Positions 2,000-30,243 of a stretch of 30,243 nucleotides of DNA are shown here, piece by piece. The stretch is taken from IMG/VR virus record IMGVR_UViG_3300037584_003167, positions 1-30,243 of that record, one strand, 5' to 3'. Each line of letters opens with the position of its first letter. Within the stretch, counting starts at the first letter, position 1. The position numbers were made by a program, and so were the translations under genes. The notes beneath the pieces are model-generated. The model was not told the origin of the DNA and made no database searches. It saw only the letters and a list, made by a program, of their open reading frames with translations. Source of the stretch: a virus.

Positions 2000-2031
2000 A
2001 AAGGGATGGTAGAAATTACTATCCCTTTTTT
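2000..2031 (+). terminator. Rho-independent terminator after tail tube gene
   Basis: A 12-bp stem pairs 2000-2011 with 2017-2028, with one G-T pair, a GAAAT loop and a T-run to 2031. It ends two bases before the promoter-like element at 2033, so it separates the capsid/tube unit from the portal unit. Confidence 0.88.
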
Positions 2032-2032
2032 A

Positions 2033-2064
2033 GTACAAAACACTTATTTATTGTTATATAAGTA
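2033..2064 (+). promoter_or_regulatory. Candidate phage late promoter, copy 1
   Basis: GTACAAAA, seven bases, then TTATTGTTATATAAGTA. The same two blocks with the same spacing occur at 17289-17320, and related forms occur at 26161 and 27211. It follows a terminator directly and precedes the portal unit. The last A of the motif is the A of the next ATG (2064), so if this is a -10 region the transcript would be leaderless or start inside the gene. The promoter role is inferred. Confidence 0.55.
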
Positions 2065-14589: not shown

Positions 14590-14657
14590 TATAAAAAACC
14601 CTATCTTTGATCTATAACACAAACATAACGAAACTATAAAAAGGTAGGGTTTTACTT
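14590..14657 (+). promoter_or_regulatory. Promoter and inverted repeat ahead of sigma-like gene
   Basis: TATCTTTG at 14602-14609 is a perfect TAnnTTTG box. AAAACCCTA (14595-14603) and TAGGGTTTT (14645-14653) form a perfect 9-base inverted repeat around it, with 41 bases between. A transcript starting at the box would lack the left arm, while a readthrough transcript would contain both arms and could fold over the region just upstream of the ATG. No clear -33 TTTG is seen. Confidence 0.55.
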
Positions 14658-15200
14658 ATGGCTAATTACATGGAAATAATCAGTAAGGATCATTTAGAGT
14701 GGATAGCTATAGTTAGAAGTTTTGGTGGTGGTATATACTCAGAAGATATAGTACAAGATACATATTTACGAATCCATAAAGCTGGTAGCAAAAAAAAAAT
14801 AGTAGTCAATGGAAAAGTAAACAAGGCTTTTATGTGGGTTACACTAAGAAATAACTACATTAATTTTGCTAGGAAAAATGCTAAAATGTATAAAGTAGAA
14901 CTAAAAGATTACCACATGAAAAATCGAATAGAACATGATCAAAAAAGATACATAGCAAATGATGTACTAGAATACAAAATCAATGAAGAAGTAAAAAAAT
15001 GGCATTGGTACGATAGGGATCTATTTGAACTAATAACATCAGGTGAAATTAGCATGAGAAAATTGGCAAGGGAATCTACAATTAGTTTATCTAGCATTGC
15101 AAACACCATGAATAAATGTAGAAGAAAATTACGTGAAGCTATAGGTGAAGATTATGAAGATTATATTAATGGTGATTACAAACAAATTATAGATGCTTAA
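14658..15200 (+). CDS. Sigma-70/ECF-like transcription factor
   Basis: A 180-residue protein built like an ECF sigma factor. Region 2.2 is SEDIVQDTYLRI (residues 28-39), region 2.3/2.4 is FMWVTLRNNYINFARKN (58-74), and region 4 is an ISMRKLARESTISLSSIAN-type helix-turn-helix (131-162) with a basic end. It should bind host RNA polymerase core and direct it to phage promoters, most plausibly late ones. It sits at the boundary between replication genes and terminase/structural genes, with its own promoter and inverted repeat upstream. The repeated ACAAAA-N12-GTTATATA element is a possible target. Confidence 0.75.
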   Translation: MANYMEIISKDHLEWIAIVRSFGGGIYSEDIVQDTYLRIHKAGSKKKIVVNGKVNKAFMWVTLRNNYINFARKNAKMYKVELKDYHMKNRIEHDQKRYIANDVLEYKINEEVKKWHWYDRDLFELITSGEISMRKLARESTISLSSIANTMNKCRRKLREAIGEDYEDYINGDYKQIIDA

Positions 15201-15404: not shown

Positions 15405-15815
15405 ATGAAAGAACCTAAAGACAAAAGAACGAAGGAATATAAAGAATGGAAAAAAATGCAAGGTGCTGGTGATCTAGTAGAAAAAGTATTAGATGTAACT
15501 GGTGTAGGCAAAGTGGCAAAATGGGTACTAGGTGAAGATTGTAATTGTGATAAACGAAAAGAATACCTTAATCGAGTAATGCCATTTAAAAACGTGCAAT
15601 GCCTTACTGAAGATGAATATAAATGGCTAGATGTCTATTTTGATCAAACACGAAATACAATATCTGTTAATACACAAGACGAATTTAATGTTATATATAA
15701 TAGAGTATTTAATAAAAAGGTTGGTAGGTCTTCATGTGGATCTTGTGTAGCACAAAGAATAAAAGAAATGCAAAAGCTATATAGAGAATACAAAAAAGAC
15801 TTTACAGCACAATAA
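15405..15815 (+). CDS. Cys-motif protein upstream of terminase
   Basis: A 136-residue protein (140 if started at 15393). Basic N-terminus KDKRTKEYKEWKK, then GDLVEKVLDVTGVGKVAKWV, then CNCDKRKEYLN, CLTEDEYKWL and near the C-terminus SSCGSC. The combination is one I associate with proteins just upstream of terminase genes in flavobacterial phages. The clustered Cys suggest metal binding. I prefer Met5 (15405) because it begins one base after the upstream stop. The function is unknown; a packaging or DNA-binding accessory is possible. Confidence 0.6.
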   Translation: MKEPKDKRTKEYKEWKKMQGAGDLVEKVLDVTGVGKVAKWVLGEDCNCDKRKEYLNRVMPFKNVQCLTEDEYKWLDVYFDQTRNTISVNTQDEFNVIYNRVFNKKVGRSSCGSCVAQRIKEMQKLYREYKKDFTAQ

Positions 15816-17287: not shown

Positions 17288-17288
17288 G

Positions 17289-17320
17289 GTACAAAATGGC
17301 GAATTATTGTTATATAAGTA
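17289..17320 (+). promoter_or_regulatory. Candidate phage late promoter, copy 2
   Basis: GTACAAAA (17289-17296), seven bases, then TTATTGTTATATAAGTA (17304-17320). Both blocks and their spacing match 2033-2064 exactly. It is in the 45-base gap after the terminase, 13 bases before the LamG gene start, a normal promoter-to-gene distance. Confidence 0.6.
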
Positions 17321-17332
17321 AAGAAACAAATT

Positions 17333-18196
17333 ATGGCAAATAGTATAGGCTGGGGACAAGGATCAGTCAATAATAATAACGGCTGGGGGAAAGGAGCAAT
17401 TAATAATAATATTTCGTGGGGTGCAATACAATCATTAAGTTATTCACCTGAAACTAATTTAACTGGTGGATCAGAAGGATTTAGTGATACAACGTCATGG
17501 TCAGTATCAGTAGATGAATTTTTAAATAATTCAACCACGTTTGATACGATTCCAGCTGATGATGGTGCAAGTGGTGTTAAGTATACACTAAACGCATGGA
17601 TAAAATTAGATTCATTAAGTGGTACTCAAGTAATATATTATGTTAGTGAATCGGATGGAACATTGGTAGCCTATTTGTTGGTTACTTCATCTGGTAGATT
17701 ACAAGCATTTGTATCGGGTAGTGGTAGTAATTGGGCGAAGTCAGGTACTGGTACAATAGCCGTAGATACTTGGTATATGGTATCACTTAGATATAATTCA
17801 CCGAGTAGCAGTAGATATCATAGATTGAGTGTTTATGTAAATGGTGTTAAACCTACTGGTCATACTAGTAACTTTTTAATTGCTAATGCTGGATCAAGTG
17901 CAAACATTAATATTGGAAATACTTATTCTGATACAAATCATGTAAACGGACATATAAATGAGCCATCAATTTTCTATGGTCATGCTTTAAGTGGCTCTCA
18001 ATTAACAGATTTATATAATTCAGGAATGGCAACAGATTTAAATGAAAATACTCCCACACCTACACATTGGTTTAGGTCTGAAAATGCTAGTTGGGATGGA
18101 AGTAAATATACCATGAATGATGAAATGGAAACTAGTTTGACAATGGTAACTAATAATATGGAGCAAGACGATAAAGATTCAGACGTACCATCTTAA
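17333..18196 (+). CDS. LamG-domain surface protein 2 with GWG repeats
   Basis: A 287-residue protein. The N-terminus contains short repeats around GWG (IGWGQGSVNNNNGWGKG and a following SWG unit, residues 4-30), a pattern that recurs in phage adsorption proteins. Residues about 55-235 form a LamG/concanavalin-like domain (YTLNAWIKLDSLSG, DTWYMVSLRYNS, LSVYVNGVKPTG, INIGNTYSD, GHINEPSIFYGHALSGSQL). The C-terminal SDVPS matches the end of LamG protein 1. Likely a glycan-binding tail or head fibre, first gene of the tail II unit. Confidence 0.75.
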   Translation: MANSIGWGQGSVNNNNGWGKGAINNNISWGAIQSLSYSPETNLTGGSEGFSDTTSWSVSVDEFLNNSTTFDTIPADDGASGVKYTLNAWIKLDSLSGTQVIYYVSESDGTLVAYLLVTSSGRLQAFVSGSGSNWAKSGTGTIAVDTWYMVSLRYNSPSSSRYHRLSVYVNGVKPTGHTSNFLIANAGSSANINIGNTYSDTNHVNGHINEPSIFYGHALSGSQLTDLYNSGMATDLNENTPTPTHWFRSENASWDGSKYTMNDEMETSLTMVTNNMEQDDKDSDVPS

Positions 18197-23945: not shown

Positions 23946-26169
23946 TGTAAAAAACATTACAGATGAATACAAAGGCTTAAATGAAGAAATAAAAGAACAA
24001 GGTAAATTAGTTGATGAAACTAATACAAGTTTTGAAAAACTAGATGAAACTACTAGTAAATACACTAATAAAGCTAGTGAAGGTTTTAAAAAAGTTGCTG
24101 AACAAAGCAAAAAAATAAAACAAAACATAAAAGGTGGTACACAAGCATTTGAAGGTGGTGCTACGGCTGTACAATTTTATGGTGATAGTCTAAGTTTAGT
24201 GGGTGCTGAATCTGAAAAGCTAGATGATAGTTTAAAAAAGGTAGATCAGGCTATGCGATTATCTAAAGGTGTAGCTGGTGTAAGAAAAAGCATAACAGCG
24301 ATTAAAGGGTTTACAGCAACCAGCAAAACAGCTACAAAAGTTCAATTATTTTTTGGTAAAATAATGGGCAAATCTACTGGAATGCTAAAAGCCTTTAGAT
24401 TAGCTTTAATTTCTACTGGTATAGGTGCATTAGTAATTGGTGTGGGTTTACTAATAGCTAATTTTGAGAAACTACTAGATGTTTTTTCACCTATTACAGA
24501 TGGTCTAAAGTCTTTAGGTGATGCTATTGGGTTAACTAGCTTTGCTGAAGATGAACGAAAAGAAAAAATAAAATCACGATTAGAAGCACAACAGAAGGCG
24601 TATGAACAAGAAGTAAAAAATCACAATCAACGTATGGATGCGTATCGGCAAGAACAAGCTGAACAAGATAAACTTTTGGGCAAAGAAATTGAATTAGCAA
24701 AAGCACGTGGTGAAGATACTACTGATATGCAAAGACAACAGCTAGAACAAAGATTAGCAGATTTGAAAAAAAATCTAGCAAAAGAAGAGAAAGCATACAT
24801 GGATGCAGATGATGGCTGGTTACAAAGTCGACATGATGAAATTGTGGAGTCCAATGAAGCAATACTATTTTTACAAAAAAAAGGTGTTAAAGAATTTAGC
24901 CAATTAAATTTTGAAGCACAAGATGAATTTAGAAAAACTTTTAGGTTTGGTATGTCGCGATCTATTGAAGGTCTAAAAACACAAATAAAACAAGCTAATG
25001 AATCAATAACATACGAAGCTGAAGTAGTAAGAAAACGATTTGGTAAAACTACACAAGCACAAATAGATGAAGCACAAAAGAATATTGAAATATTTGAGGC
25101 AAGAAATACAGCCTCAGAAAAAGCAGAACAAAAAAAGAAAAACGACAATTATAAAACATATTTACAAAATAGATTAAATGCTGAAAGGCAAATGGAGGAT
25201 ATGAGAAATTCTCTATTAGAAGAAGGTATAGAAAAAGATCTAACTATAAATGAAACTAAATTTAAACGGCTACGTGAGGATGCCCTTAAAAACACCAATT
25301 TAACAAGAACTGAGAAAAAAGCATTAGAGGATCTTTACGATCAACAAGAAATACAAGCACGTGAAAAAATTAATCAAAAGTACGTTGATTTAGAGAAAGC
25401 GAAAAATGAAAAAATTGATAAAATTAATCAAAAAGAAAATGCTGATAGAATAGCACGTGAAGATGCACAATATCAATTAGAATTACAATTACAAGCTGAT
25501 AGGCAAGAAGCTGAAATAATACTATTAACCCAAAAATATGACAAACAATTTGAACTAGCTAGTGGTAATGCTGAACTTGAAAAGATGCTAACTGAACAAA
25601 TGAATTTAGATATAGCAAATATCAATCAAAAGTTTAGGGATGAAGAAGCAAAAAAAGAAGCTGATGCATTAAACCTACGAAAGCAAAACGAAATGTCTAA
25701 AGTAGAAATGGGGTTAAGTGCATTAACATTAATTAGTAATATAGCTGATAGTATGGCTGGTGAAGATGTAGAACGTCAAAAGAAAGCCTTCAATATTAAA
25801 AAGGCTGTAGACATTGCACAAGCTACAATGGATGGATATAAAGCTGTATTATCGGCATATGCACAAGCACCAGTAGGTTTTAAAATACCAGCATCTATTA
25901 TAGCTGGTGGGTTTAGTGCATTACAAATAGGAAATATTGCTAAACAAAAATTTCAATCACCTGAACCTGATGATCTAGCATCAGGTGGTGGTGGTGGTGG
26001 TGGTGAACCTAGTGTACCAGCTACACCTGAATTTAACATCATTAGTGGTGCTGAATTAACAGATACAGAAGGTGTAGGGCAACAGCCATTACAAGCATTT
26101 GTAGTCAGTACCGAAGTAACTACAGCACAAGGCTTAGATCGTAATAGAGTAGAAAATGCGACAATTTAA
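23905..26169 (+). CDS. Tape-measure protein
   Basis: A 754-residue protein with a long helical body, a hydrophobic segment (about residues 165-187, FRLALISTGIGALVIGVGLL) typical of tape-measure proteins, and a second semi-hydrophobic segment near 660-700 (AVLSAYAQAPVGFKIPASII then GGFSALQIGN). Between them are long Glu/Lys/Gln coiled coils. Near the C-terminus is a poly-Gly linker, followed by a QPLQAFVVSTEVTTAQGLDR tail shared with other Bacteroidetes tape measures. The length sets the tail tube length, so a siphovirus is expected. Confidence 0.8.
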   Translation: MSREKVVKLKVESNVKNITDEYKGLNEEIKEQGKLVDETNTSFEKLDETTSKYTNKASEGFKKVAEQSKKIKQNIKGGTQAFEGGATAVQFYGDSLSLVGAESEKLDDSLKKVDQAMRLSKGVAGVRKSITAIKGFTATSKTATKVQLFFGKIMGKSTGMLKAFRLALISTGIGALVIGVGLLIANFEKLLDVFSPITDGLKSLGDAIGLTSFAEDERKEKIKSRLEAQQKAYEQEVKNHNQRMDAYRQEQAEQDKLLGKEIELAKARGEDTTDMQRQQLEQRLADLKKNLAKEEKAYMDADDGWLQSRHDEIVESNEAILFLQKKGVKEFSQLNFEAQDEFRKTFRFGMSRSIEGLKTQIKQANESITYEAEVVRKRFGKTTQAQIDEAQKNIEIFEARNTASEKAEQKKKNDNYKTYLQNRLNAERQMEDMRNSLLEEGIEKDLTINETKFKRLREDALKNTNLTRTEKKALEDLYDQQEIQAREKINQKYVDLEKAKNEKIDKINQKENADRIAREDAQYQLELQLQADRQEAEIILLTQKYDKQFELASGNAELEKMLTEQMNLDIANINQKFRDEEAKKEADALNLRKQNEMSKVEMGLSALTLISNIADSMAGEDVERQKKAFNIKKAVDIAQATMDGYKAVLSAYAQAPVGFKIPASIIAGGFSALQIGNIAKQKFQSPEPDDLASGGGGGGGEPSVPATPEFNIISGAELTDTEGVGQQPLQAFVVSTEVTTAQGLDRNRVENATI
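25984..26004 (+). repeat. (GGT)7 microsatellite coding poly-Gly linker
   Basis: Seven GGT triplets in a row encode a seven-Gly linker near the tape-measure C-terminus, just before PSVPATPEFN. Slipped-strand changes here would only change linker length, so it may vary between strains. Confidence 0.75.
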
Positions 26170-26191
26170 AAATTAAAGTTATATAAATATG
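26161..26191 (+). promoter_or_regulatory. Candidate phage late promoter, weaker copy 3
   Basis: ACAATT at 26161-26166, 11 bases, then GTTATATAAATATG at 26178-26191. This is one base shorter in spacing than copies 1, 2 and 4. It overlaps the end of the tape-measure gene and ends at the protease ATG. Confidence 0.4.
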
Positions 26192-27228: not shown

Positions 27229-27242
27229 GTTATATATATATG
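27211..27242 (+). promoter_or_regulatory. Candidate phage late promoter, copy 4
   Basis: ACAAAA at 27211-27216, 12 bases, then GTTATATATATATG at 27229-27242, the same spacing as at 2035 and 17291. It leads into the paralogue array and, beyond it, the scaffold and capsid genes. The motif ends at the first ATG of the array. Confidence 0.5.
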
Positions 27243-27632
27243 AGCATTAATAAGATTAACGAAAAGTTACATAAATCTAAAAAAGTAGATTTAAAAACAC
27301 GTAAAGTAAGTTTAAACAAATTAGATGAACTATCTGAAGAAGCTAGTATATCAGCTGGTAATTATCAATATGCTGCAGAACAAGTTGCAGAAGCACATAA
27401 ATTTTTAATGACTGCATGGGATATAGTACGATTTGAAGTACCTAGACCTGATGATATTCAAGATGAATTAGATGTAATAACTGAAAATTTAGATAGTTTA
27501 GGTATAGACCATCCATCTGAAGTACAAGAAGTACAACAAAACATAAATTTCGCAAAAGAGCAATTTAATCAGGTGTTAAAAGATATGGAATGGTGGGAAA
27601 TTAATCATGGTTTAGATAGATATTCAATTTAA
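27240..27632 (+). CDS. Array paralogue 1 (helical, LGIDHP motif)
   Basis: A 130-residue helical protein. The N-terminus reads INKINEKLHK, followed by KKVDL and RKVSL. Two helical segments are separated by LDSLGIDHPSEVQ (about residues 85-97). It has the most diverged N-terminus of the five, with two KVxL segments instead of one. It is the first gene after promoter-like element 4. No family function is known to me; its place suggests an internal capsid or scaffold-associated protein. Confidence 0.6.
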   Translation: MSINKINEKLHKSKKVDLKTRKVSLNKLDELSEEASISAGNYQYAAEQVAEAHKFLMTAWDIVRFEVPRPDDIQDELDVITENLDSLGIDHPSEVQEVQQNINFAKEQFNQVLKDMEWWEINHGLDRYSI

Positions 27633-27638
27633 TAAGAT

Positions 27639-28064
27639 ATGCAAAAAATACTAGACAAATTAGCGAAGGATAAAAGAAGCGTAAATTTAAATACAGCTGA
27701 TGAAATACGATCTGAAATGGAACGGATTTCAGATGATTTAGGTCTAGCTAGTTATTATGCCTATGAAAGATTTGAAGAAATATCTGATAAAGTAGCTGAA
27801 TTTAAATCAGAAATAAGCATAGAAGTAGATAATCAAATAGTAAATAGTGAGGTTACCTATCCTGAAGATAAACTACAAGGTTTAAAAGAAATGCTAATGC
27901 CAGTAGAACATGTAGCTGAAAGTTTAGGTGTGAACCCTAATGAATTAATGCCTGAATTTGATGAAGCCTTAGAATTAATGAAACAATATGAAGAAGTATA
28001 TAATGATTATAGGGATGCCTATAATACATTAGTACGAGAATCAGGTTTTTTAGCACAATTTTAA
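27639..28064 (+). CDS. Array paralogue 2 (helical, LGVNPNE motif)
   Basis: A 141-residue protein starting MQKILDKLAKDKRSVNL, the clearest form of the shared N-terminus. RSVNLNT also resembles RKVNLAT near the start of the capsid protein. Helix-turn-helix layout with ESLGVNPNELMPEFD at about 94-108. Strongly acidic, with no Cys. Six bases separate it from paralogue 1 and one base from paralogue 3. The function is inferred only from context. Confidence 0.6.
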   Translation: MQKILDKLAKDKRSVNLNTADEIRSEMERISDDLGLASYYAYERFEEISDKVAEFKSEISIEVDNQIVNSEVTYPEDKLQGLKEMLMPVEHVAESLGVNPNELMPEFDEALELMKQYEEVYNDYRDAYNTLVRESGFLAQF

Positions 28065-28065
28065 T

Positions 28066-28446
28066 ATGAAAGATAGCAGACAAAGAGTATTAGACAAATT
28101 AGCAAAAGCTAACAAGCCGTCAACAAGTGTTAAACTAGGTGCTGTACAAGATTTACAAGAGGGTTTAGGTTATTCAGATGTAGCATTTAATGTAGCGTTA
28201 GAATGGAATGATGAATTAAGTAATGAAATATATGAAAAAGTTTCATTAGGGTATGCATCATTAGAATTAGGTATAGAAAAATTAGAACCAGCTATAGCCG
28301 AAATAAATCAATTTATGGATGATTTAGGTGTAGATCCATTAGAATCTGTAGAAGATTATGATAAAGCTGTTAGAATGCTAGACTATTTACAAAATGTAAA
28401 ATCAGAATATGAAAAATTATTAAATTCACTAGATTTTAGACTATAA
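28066..28446 (+). CDS. Array paralogue 3 (helical, LGVDP motif)
   Basis: A 126-residue protein with the shared N-terminus moved four residues inward: RQRVLDKLAK, then NKPSTSVKL. The turn motif is DDLGVDPLESVED (about 86-98). Bases 28094-28135 are nearly identical to the start of paralogue 4, so these two derive from a recent duplication or conversion limited to the N-terminal signal region; the rest has diverged. Confidence 0.6.
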   Translation: MKDSRQRVLDKLAKANKPSTSVKLGAVQDLQEGLGYSDVAFNVALEWNDELSNEIYEKVSLGYASLELGIEKLEPAIAEINQFMDDLGVDPLESVEDYDKAVRMLDYLQNVKSEYEKLLNSLDFRL

Positions 28447-28449
28447 AAT

Positions 28450-28866
28450 ATGCAAAAGATATTTAACAAATTAGCAAAAACTAACAAGCCTTCAACAAGT
28501 GTTAAACATAAGGTAGACCTATCTAATATTACTGAATTAGAAGATCATGTAGAATTTGTTTTGGATATTGTAGAATCTGAAAGTAGTAGAAGTATAGATT
28601 TATTAAATGAATTAGGTGAATCTATGGGTGCATTAGATGGTGCTATGTCATTAGTAAAAGAAGATTATGAACATGCACTAGAATTAATGAATGCTATAGA
28701 AGATTTAGGTATAGATACACCTGATAGTTTAATAAGGGTTTTAGATCAACTAATGAATTTAGTAGATATGCGAAAAGAAGTACAGCCAAGCTATGAAAAA
28801 ACACAATTAGCATTTGGTGTTGTAACAAGTATAAATGAATTATCTGATTATGCAAAAAATTTATAA
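28450..28866 (+). CDS. Array paralogue 4 (helical, LGIDTP motif)
   Basis: A 138-residue protein: MQKIFNKLAKTNKPSTSVKH followed by KVDL, then a helix, EDLGIDTPDSLIRVLD (about 87-102) and a second helix. The N-terminal 19 residues match paralogue 3 closely at base level, while the body does not, suggesting that the signal region is under separate constraint. Its last 17 bases overlap the preferred start of paralogue 5. Confidence 0.6.
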   Translation: MQKIFNKLAKTNKPSTSVKHKVDLSNITELEDHVEFVLDIVESESSRSIDLLNELGESMGALDGAMSLVKEDYEHALELMNAIEDLGIDTPDSLIRVLDQLMNLVDMRKEVQPSYEKTQLAFGVVTSINELSDYAKNL

Positions 28867-29233
28867 TAAACTAGCCAAAGAAACACCAGCTAAACGAAAA
28901 GTAAAGCTAAGTAAAGTAAATGATCTAATGGATCAGATTAAAGAATGTCGTGAAGAAATGAATCAAATAGCTTTACAAAGTGAAAATGCATTAACTGATG
29001 TGCAAAATGCATTAGGTGAATTAAGAATAATTCAAGAATCAAAAATACCATCATTATCATTTGATAAAGATGAATTATTAAATCAGGTACTAGATTTAGG
29101 TATTGATGTACCACAAGAATTAAACGAATTAGATCAAATGTTGGTAGATGCTGAAACTATAGATGCTGATGCCTTTGATTTAGTATCAAAAGTAGAAGAT
29201 CTAAGATCAGAACTAAGTAAATTTATGTTATAA
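28850..29233 (+). CDS. Array paralogue 5 (helical, LGIDVPQE motif)
   Basis: A 127-residue protein from the ATG at 28850, chosen because MQKIYNKLAKETPAKRKVKL then aligns with the other array members; an ATG 15 bases upstream would add five unrelated residues. The turn motif is LDLGIDVPQELNEL (about 80-93). Acidic helical body. It overlaps paralogue 4 by 17 bases and lies two bases before the scaffold candidate. Confidence 0.6.
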   Translation: MQKIYNKLAKETPAKRKVKLSKVNDLMDQIKECREEMNQIALQSENALTDVQNALGELRIIQESKIPSLSFDKDELLNQVLDLGIDVPQELNELDQMLVDAETIDADAFDLVSKVEDLRSELSKFML

Positions 29234-29235
29234 TT

Positions 29236-30237
29236 ATGAAAGCAAAAGAAACACTAGACAAAATAAGAACAGCTTTAAATATGAAAGTAGAATTAGAAAC
29301 AATGACATTAGAAGATGGTGTCACAATTTTAGAAGCCGAATCATTTACGGAAGGTGCTGAAGTCTTTATCGTAATGGATGAAGAACGTGTACCATTAGCA
29401 GTAGGTGAATATACCCTAGAAGATGGTAGATCTTTAGTAGTAGAAACAGAAGGTATTATTGCTATGGTAGGTGAACAAGTAGAAGGTGAAGAAGAAGAAG
29501 AAGTAAAGCCTGAAGTAGATGAAGAAATGGCAAATGACAAGCCTAAAATGATTTCTGAAACTAAAATTAAAGAAACATATTTTGAAGAAGAAACACCTGA
29601 AGAAGTAGCTGATACTATTAAAGAAGTAGAAGATGAAGTTTTAGGTGAAGTATCTACAATTATCGAAGAATTAACACCTGAAGCTGTAACTGAATCAGAT
29701 GCCTCAGAAATGGCTGTAGCAGTCGTAGAAGCTGTTACAGATACTTTAGAAGAAATGCCTGAAGATTTAAAAGACGTATATAAGAAAAAACGTAAAAAGT
29801 ACGGCAAAGCAAAACTAACAGATGAAGAAGCTGAAGTAGTTGCTGAAGCTGAAGGGCAAATAACAGAGGCTGTAGCTGAAGTAGTAAGTGCTGAAACACC
29901 TGAAGAAATTACACCTGAAATAGCTGAAGAAATAGCTGTTGTAATTACTGAGGCAGTACAAGAAATTGTAGCTGATGCACCTGAAGAGTTAAAAGCACAA
30001 CTATTTAAGAAAACAAAATTGTCTAAGACTAAAAGAAACACGAAGTCTAGAATTGATATGGCAAAAGAAAAAATTGCTAGAATACAAAAAAGACAAGAAC
30101 TAAAGACAAAAACAAATTCAGGGAAAAGATATGTACATAACCCTGAAGCAATAAGCAAAGAAAAACAACAATTTAAAATTAGCGAAGGACGTGAAATGAA
30201 CACTATGGATCGCATTTTAAATAAATTGTATAAATAA
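29236..30237 (+). CDS. Glu-rich scaffold / capsid-assembly candidate
   Basis: A 333-residue protein directly upstream of the capsid gene on the circle. N-terminus: TLDKIRTALNMKVEL, a variant of the array's N-terminal motif. Residues about 22-80 look like a small beta domain (EDGVTILEAESF, RVPLAVGEYTLEDGRSLVVE). The middle is extremely acidic, with two ~42-residue helical repeats (147-188 and 221-262, each TPE..., EAV, MPEDLK/APEELK) that end in basic patches. The C-terminal ~70 residues are basic and end in MDRILNKLYK. Position, charge and coiled-coil nature fit a scaffold trimmed by the XkdF-type protease. Confidence 0.65.
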   Translation: MKAKETLDKIRTALNMKVELETMTLEDGVTILEAESFTEGAEVFIVMDEERVPLAVGEYTLEDGRSLVVETEGIIAMVGEQVEGEEEEEVKPEVDEEMANDKPKMISETKIKETYFEEETPEEVADTIKEVEDEVLGEVSTIIEELTPEAVTESDASEMAVAVVEAVTDTLEEMPEDLKDVYKKKRKKYGKAKLTDEEAEVVAEAEGQITEAVAEVVSAETPEEITPEIAEEIAVVITEAVQEIVADAPEELKAQLFKKTKLSKTKRNTKSRIDMAKEKIARIQKRQELKTKTNSGKRYVHNPEAISKEKQQFKISEGREMNTMDRILNKLYK

Positions 30238-30243
30238 TAATTA
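29927..30243. repeat. Contig-end overlap, right copy
   Basis: Matches 1-317 except at six positions (30054, 30057, 30099, 30129, 30156, 30169). Three of these change amino acids in the scaffold C-terminus. It closes the circle. Confidence 0.9.

Follow-up and report, generated by a model that had tools for sequence, protein, structure and literature searches.

A candidate late promoter of a Bacteroidota-type phage, probably read by the phage's own ECF-like sigma factor

The window analysed here, a whole IMG/VR virus record of 30,243 bases, carries a two-box element repeated ahead of its structural genes, and it raises the question of what this element does and which factor reads it. The original prediction took it for a phage-specific late promoter recognized by a sigma-like protein of the phage itself. 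Bases 1-317 and 29927-30243 of the record are near-identical, not exact copies, as would fit a circular or permuted genome whose assembly drew on a mixed population. An Rfam search gave no match and a tRNA search found none. Host-type promoters and terminase matches at <60% identity suggest a host in the Bacteroidota; the best listed terminase matches were phages of Phocaeicola, Parabacteroides, Nonlabens and Flavobacterium, and the 1141 matching records include many other hosts. In the early region, TATAAATTATG was seen ahead of several genes (8887, 9615, 9937, 12771) as a possible shared start context. The features of the window are as follows.

2001-2031, plus strand: intrinsic terminator hairpin with a stem of 12 pairs and then T6 (fold -16.5 kcal/mol)
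2032-2038, plus strand: upstream (-35-like) box AGTACAA, preceding gene 2064 and the portal gene; conserved in L084, L085 and L243
2053-2058, plus strand: downstream (-10-like) box GTTATA; predicted transcription start at the ATG at 2064
14595-14653, plus strand: hairpin leader of the sigma gene (-16 kcal/mol), holding host-type box TATCTTTG at 14602-14609
14658-15200, plus strand: predicted phage ECF-like sigma factor of 180 aa, from family alignment A1, an AlphaFold model and structure matches
17288-17294, plus strand: upstream box GGTACAA, which immediately follows the stop codon of the terminase gene
17309-17314, plus strand: downstream box GTTATA; predicted start at 17320 and ATG at 17333, with a 13-nt leader that is absent in L164
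26161-26189, plus strand: weaker site ACAA-N13-GTTA-N7-ATG, ahead of a protease-like gene; the same position is used in L181, L173 and L194
27210-27242, plus strand: site GACAA-N14-GTTA-N7-ATG, ahead of gene 27240

Direct reading of the sequence bore out the two long copies that had been placed at 2033-2064 and 17289-17320, both of the form GTACAAAA-N7-TTATTGTTATATAAGTA. The shorter form ACAAAA-N12-GTTATATA was exact at 2035, 17291 and 27211, the last being the third copy of the original prediction, and all three lay on the plus (coding) strand with none on the minus strand. The looser form proposed for 26161-26188 proved real as well, with a box gap one base shorter than in the others. As had also been claimed, the four sites lie ahead of structural units, which begin at 2064 (followed by the portal gene), 17333 (a LamG-domain protein, then tail genes), 26189 (the protease-like gene) and 27240 (running to the capsid gene), and the first site stands directly 3' of a strong terminator hairpin. 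A one-mismatch copy at 15672 was intragenic and lacked a correctly placed ATG. The stretch 27240-29233, ahead of the capsid gene, holds a run of small genes (about 130 aa each) that start alike and appear to be paralogues.

Chance similarity in AT-rich DNA was scarcely credible as an explanation. It would fit the scan of the window with three mismatches, where 26 matches were found against 24.5 expected; this lack of excess means that the signal resides in the near-exact copies. For the exact form chance was already refuted, since three copies were found whereas 1000 dinucleotide shuffles gave a mean of 0.006 per strand and a maximum of 1. Moreover, the exact motif occurred nine times forward and never in reverse in 239 related loci, and its positions were conserved in relatives.

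The sigma, portal, terminase and capsid proteins served as queries in the scans that yielded these relatives (loci L004-L247). The bases after their terminase stop codon took the conserved form (GG)TACAA-N14-GTTA-N7-ATG, in which the ATG follows GTTA by 7 nt. With boxes and spacing conserved in this way, the late-promoter part of the original prediction was supported. Its consensus needed correction, to (GG)TACAA-N14-GTTATA, and it had missed that the ATG lies at a fixed distance. The spacing between TACAA and GTTATA peaked at 14, with 24 distinct forward and 0 reverse cases; other spacings gave 0-13 forward. When TACAA-N14-GTTA was scanned forward, the nearest downstream ATG lay exactly 7 nt on in 26/60 matches, no ATG was present within 60 nt in 14/60, and other distances occurred once or twice each; in reverse, the 7-nt distance was found in 3/23, and these three look like one homologous family. 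A weight matrix for which 17 of the 18 non-redundant copies were used, leaving out an antisense one, gave 18 forward and 0 reverse matches at score 22, all with the ATG in place; its seeds had been selected on the presence of the ATG, which leaves the TACAA-N14-GTTA scan as the source of unbiased counts.

The records obtained with terminase fell into group A, which carries the element after the terminase gene, and a sister group B without it there. Among the top de novo positional words of group A were GTTA at -11 and TACA at -30. Another top word, TTTGA at -38, was dropped when reading of the rows showed it to be the conserved end of a protein that precedes the next ATG. In distant lineages GTTA stays 7-8 nt from the ATG while the gap between the boxes drifts from 14 to 17; in other lineages the spacing between the boxes is 15 or 17, or the gap before the ATG is 8. 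In L191 CTTA replaces GTTA, and L192 and L193 have the same flank. Some relatives (L168, L175) also carry a terminator-like hairpin ahead of the element; such hairpins were found upstream of 8/50 element starts compared with 42/1689 other starts.

Counting the ATG as +1, GTTATA occupies -11 to -6 and GGTACAA -32 to -26, which are positions as expected of a promoter starting at the ATG. T was present at -1 in 35/37 element starts versus 713/1730 others. In a published survey, a TA-like signal about 10 bp upstream is taken as the mark of a leaderless gene (PMC3160421), and such a -10-like box, GTTATA at -11 to -6, was present at three of the four sites in the window, as well as in relatives. The same register was seen in sigma-less group B for the host-type box TANNTTTG, which stood at -12 to -5 of the ATG in 12/249 starts, no other listed position having more than 3; in the start-site data described for F. 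johnsoniae this box runs from T-12 to G-5 (PMC6847099). The ATG itself is thus the likely transcription start, so the late mRNAs are predicted to be leaderless. Two window sites count against this reading: at 26161 the spacing is 13, and at 17289 the ATG at +1 is missing.

The fixed distance to the ATG in nearly all cases might instead mark a translation signal in the mRNA leader, that is, a Bacteroidota start-site context; this phylum is described as lacking Shine-Dalgarno sequences and tuning its starts by upstream bases (PMC6847099). However, GTTA stood at -11 in only 61/1767 starts, and a translation signal would leave the box at about -30, with its clade-specific spacing of 14-17, unexplained, as it would the enrichment of sites after terminators. 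Window site 17289 keeps both boxes without the ATG at that distance, its predicted start being followed by the 13-nt leader, which argues for a DNA signal and not for a part of the translation start. We therefore consider a translation signal unlikely, and a late promoter is the reading followed below.

The claim that the phage encodes its own sigma-like factor was supported by structure prediction, the modelled protein having the two domains of an ECF sigma factor (pLDDT 89, pTM 0.49). Its best PDB matches were ECF sigma factors (Foldseek E 1.5e-3, probability 1.0), to which residues 1-77 and 96-172 were matched, and alignment with VIA-align gave Z up to 9.5. Region 2 superposed with RpoE at 2.7 A over 74 residues and region 4 with sigmaE bound to -35 DNA at 1.9 A over 69 residues; the model has regions 2 and 4 only with a short linker between them, the architecture of ECF (group 4) factors. 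By sequence, the window protein is at most suggestive of a sigma factor, falling below the Pfam cut-off (Sigma70_r2, E 0.015), and its family is more so: Sigma70_r2 was found in 8/26 members at E<=0.01 (best 1.6e-5), Sigma70_r4_2 in 2/26, and phrog_1740 'RNA polymerase sigma factor' in 17/26. A tblastn search of the cultured-phage collection with three family members gave no match, and a sigma-profile scan of genome contigs returned, among the matches listed, 20 weak ones on cellular contigs of several phyla and gave no host.

Residues 164-171 of the protein (window 15148-15171) form a tail, EDYEDYIN, that is invariant in the 26 members of A1 and absent in the sigma protein of L115; as EDYEDYIN was among the scan peptides, this invariance is partly selected. 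The tail is a possible partner contact. In-frame stops in some distant sigma genes were considered as stop recoding, which was rejected: in 21 sequences, opening TAG gave open reading frames that were hardly longer, if at all, and in L115, the one locus examined, the match overruns the natural stop.

The sigma gene itself is probably expressed from a host-type promoter. A host-type box TANNTTTG was present within 110 nt upstream in 42/54 sigma genes (related loci and window), most often at -23, which fits the order host sigma, phage sigma, late genes. In the window the leader hairpin resembles a terminator that would end the upstream unit and overlap the sigma promoter. In L042 (upstream of 9437) and similar relatives a GATTAG...CTAATC inverted repeat, possibly a repressor site, flanks the host-type box ahead of the sigma gene. 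An E. coli-type promoter scan gave fewer matches than shuffles (66 vs 103; 46 vs 81) and was not informative.

Presence of the element was compared with that of the sigma gene in 50 terminase records (25 of group A and 25 of group B) out of roughly 80 obtained. Sigma profile A1, an alignment of 26 sequences, matched 21/25 group A records and 0/25 of group B (Fisher 4e-10, without correction for relatedness), a contrast that may reflect one evolutionary split and not 50 independent events. A looser element pattern was found in 24/25 group A versus 5/25 group B records, four of the latter five being nearly identical; in group A, the sole match in G019 looks like chance. In a second set of 50 portal-linked records, from 80 portal loci plus L243, a diverged sigma was found in 20. 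Sites of the form [AG]CAA-N16-GTTA-N7-ATG were found in 12 of the 50 (G055, G056, G060, G065, G066, G069, G070, G071, G074, G076, G078 and G092), and most members of this distant spacing-16 lineage have three sites per genome. Four of the 12 (G056, G071, G076 and G092) gave no sigma match, and all four are <19 kb.

A late promoter could also be read by another factor, either a host alternative sigma or a phage activator working with the host sigma. A clear GTTA word was absent in some sigma-bearing lineages, as this would allow, several of them having GTAT variants or a gap of 8. Nevertheless, presence and absence of the element follow the phage sigma gene, its geometry is ECF-like, and the host -7 box TANNTTTG is carried by none of the four window sites. 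We regard another factor as improbable, if marginally less so than a translation signal.

Among the readings weighed, the best supported is that the phage's own sigma reads the element as a late promoter: boxes and spacing are kept ahead of the late genes of relatives, often after a terminator, and the element is strand-specific and accompanies the sigma gene. On these sequence comparisons the element is quite probably the late promoter of a Bacteroidota-type phage, read by the phage's ECF-like sigma and mostly giving leaderless mRNAs. Host polymerase with host sigma would produce the phage sigma from its host-type promoter, and the phage protein would then join host RNA polymerase, with region 4 recognizing (GG)TACAA and region 2 melting GTTATA, which lies 14 bp downstream. 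Transcription would start about 8 nt after GTTA, in nearly all cases at the A of the ATG, and three to four such promoters per genome would drive the structural genes. Recognition of the element by the sigma protein is what we infer, and binding, start site and timing are likewise predicted.

More broadly, there is an even prospect that a large group of uncultured Bacteroidota phages has late promoters locked onto the start codon, with leaderless late mRNAs irrespective of the sigma: some lineages would rely on a phage ECF sigma whose promoter co-evolves with it, others on the sigma of the host. If so, the late switch would be coupled to a changed translation start in hosts that lack Shine-Dalgarno sequences and are mostly leadered; in F. 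johnsoniae, 87% of predicted transcripts are described as having leaders >10 nt (PMC6847099), and for many Bacteroidetes the survey of PMC3160421 reports finding neither leaderless nor Shine-Dalgarno genes. The analysis yields a consensus promoter together with a candidate sigma for phages that are met repeatedly in metagenomes and were not found in the cultured-phage collection by these searches. It predicts a transcription start to the base, and would provide a natural sigma-promoter series with spacings from 14 to 17 for the study of specificity and a test of leaderless translation in Bacteroidota. In the library searched, literature on phage ECF sigma factors with their late promoters, on late phage mRNAs that lack leaders and on the late promoters of Bacteroidetes phages listed no description of this system.

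That a phage ECF sigma drives late genes is already known, and the present case would be a variant with a different promoter. In the published accounts of phiEco32 and 7-11, phage-encoded ECF sigma factors drive the late genes (PMC4331800; ECF assignment PMC7881722), and the likeness extends to a small phage ECF-type sigma, structural genes under phage-specific late promoters, and host promoters for earlier genes. Their published consensus TAATGTATA is not enriched here, with one exact copy, on the minus strand, and 34 matches with up to 1 mismatch against 43.5 expected. Unlike those described for phiEco32 and 7-11, the promoters here have two boxes and a fixed distance to the ATG, and the host phylum is different. 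The boxes reported for sigmaE, GGAACTTTT and GTCAAA (PMC1804206), resemble GGTACAA and GTTATA, and the sigma has two domains in both; unlike such a cellular ECF factor, the phage protein would serve a regulon of structural genes whose mRNA is predicted to be leaderless. The element shares with the leaderless genes of PMC3160421 a TA-rich box at -11 to -6 of the ATG; that survey, as published, sought boxes of the primary sigma, whereas the box here is tied to a phage sigma. The Bacteroidota primary-sigma promoter as described (TTTG / TANNTTTG, PMC6847099) is used by the sigma-less sister phages in the same ATG register and also occurs upstream of the phage sigma gene, whereas GTTATA does not match TANNTTTG.
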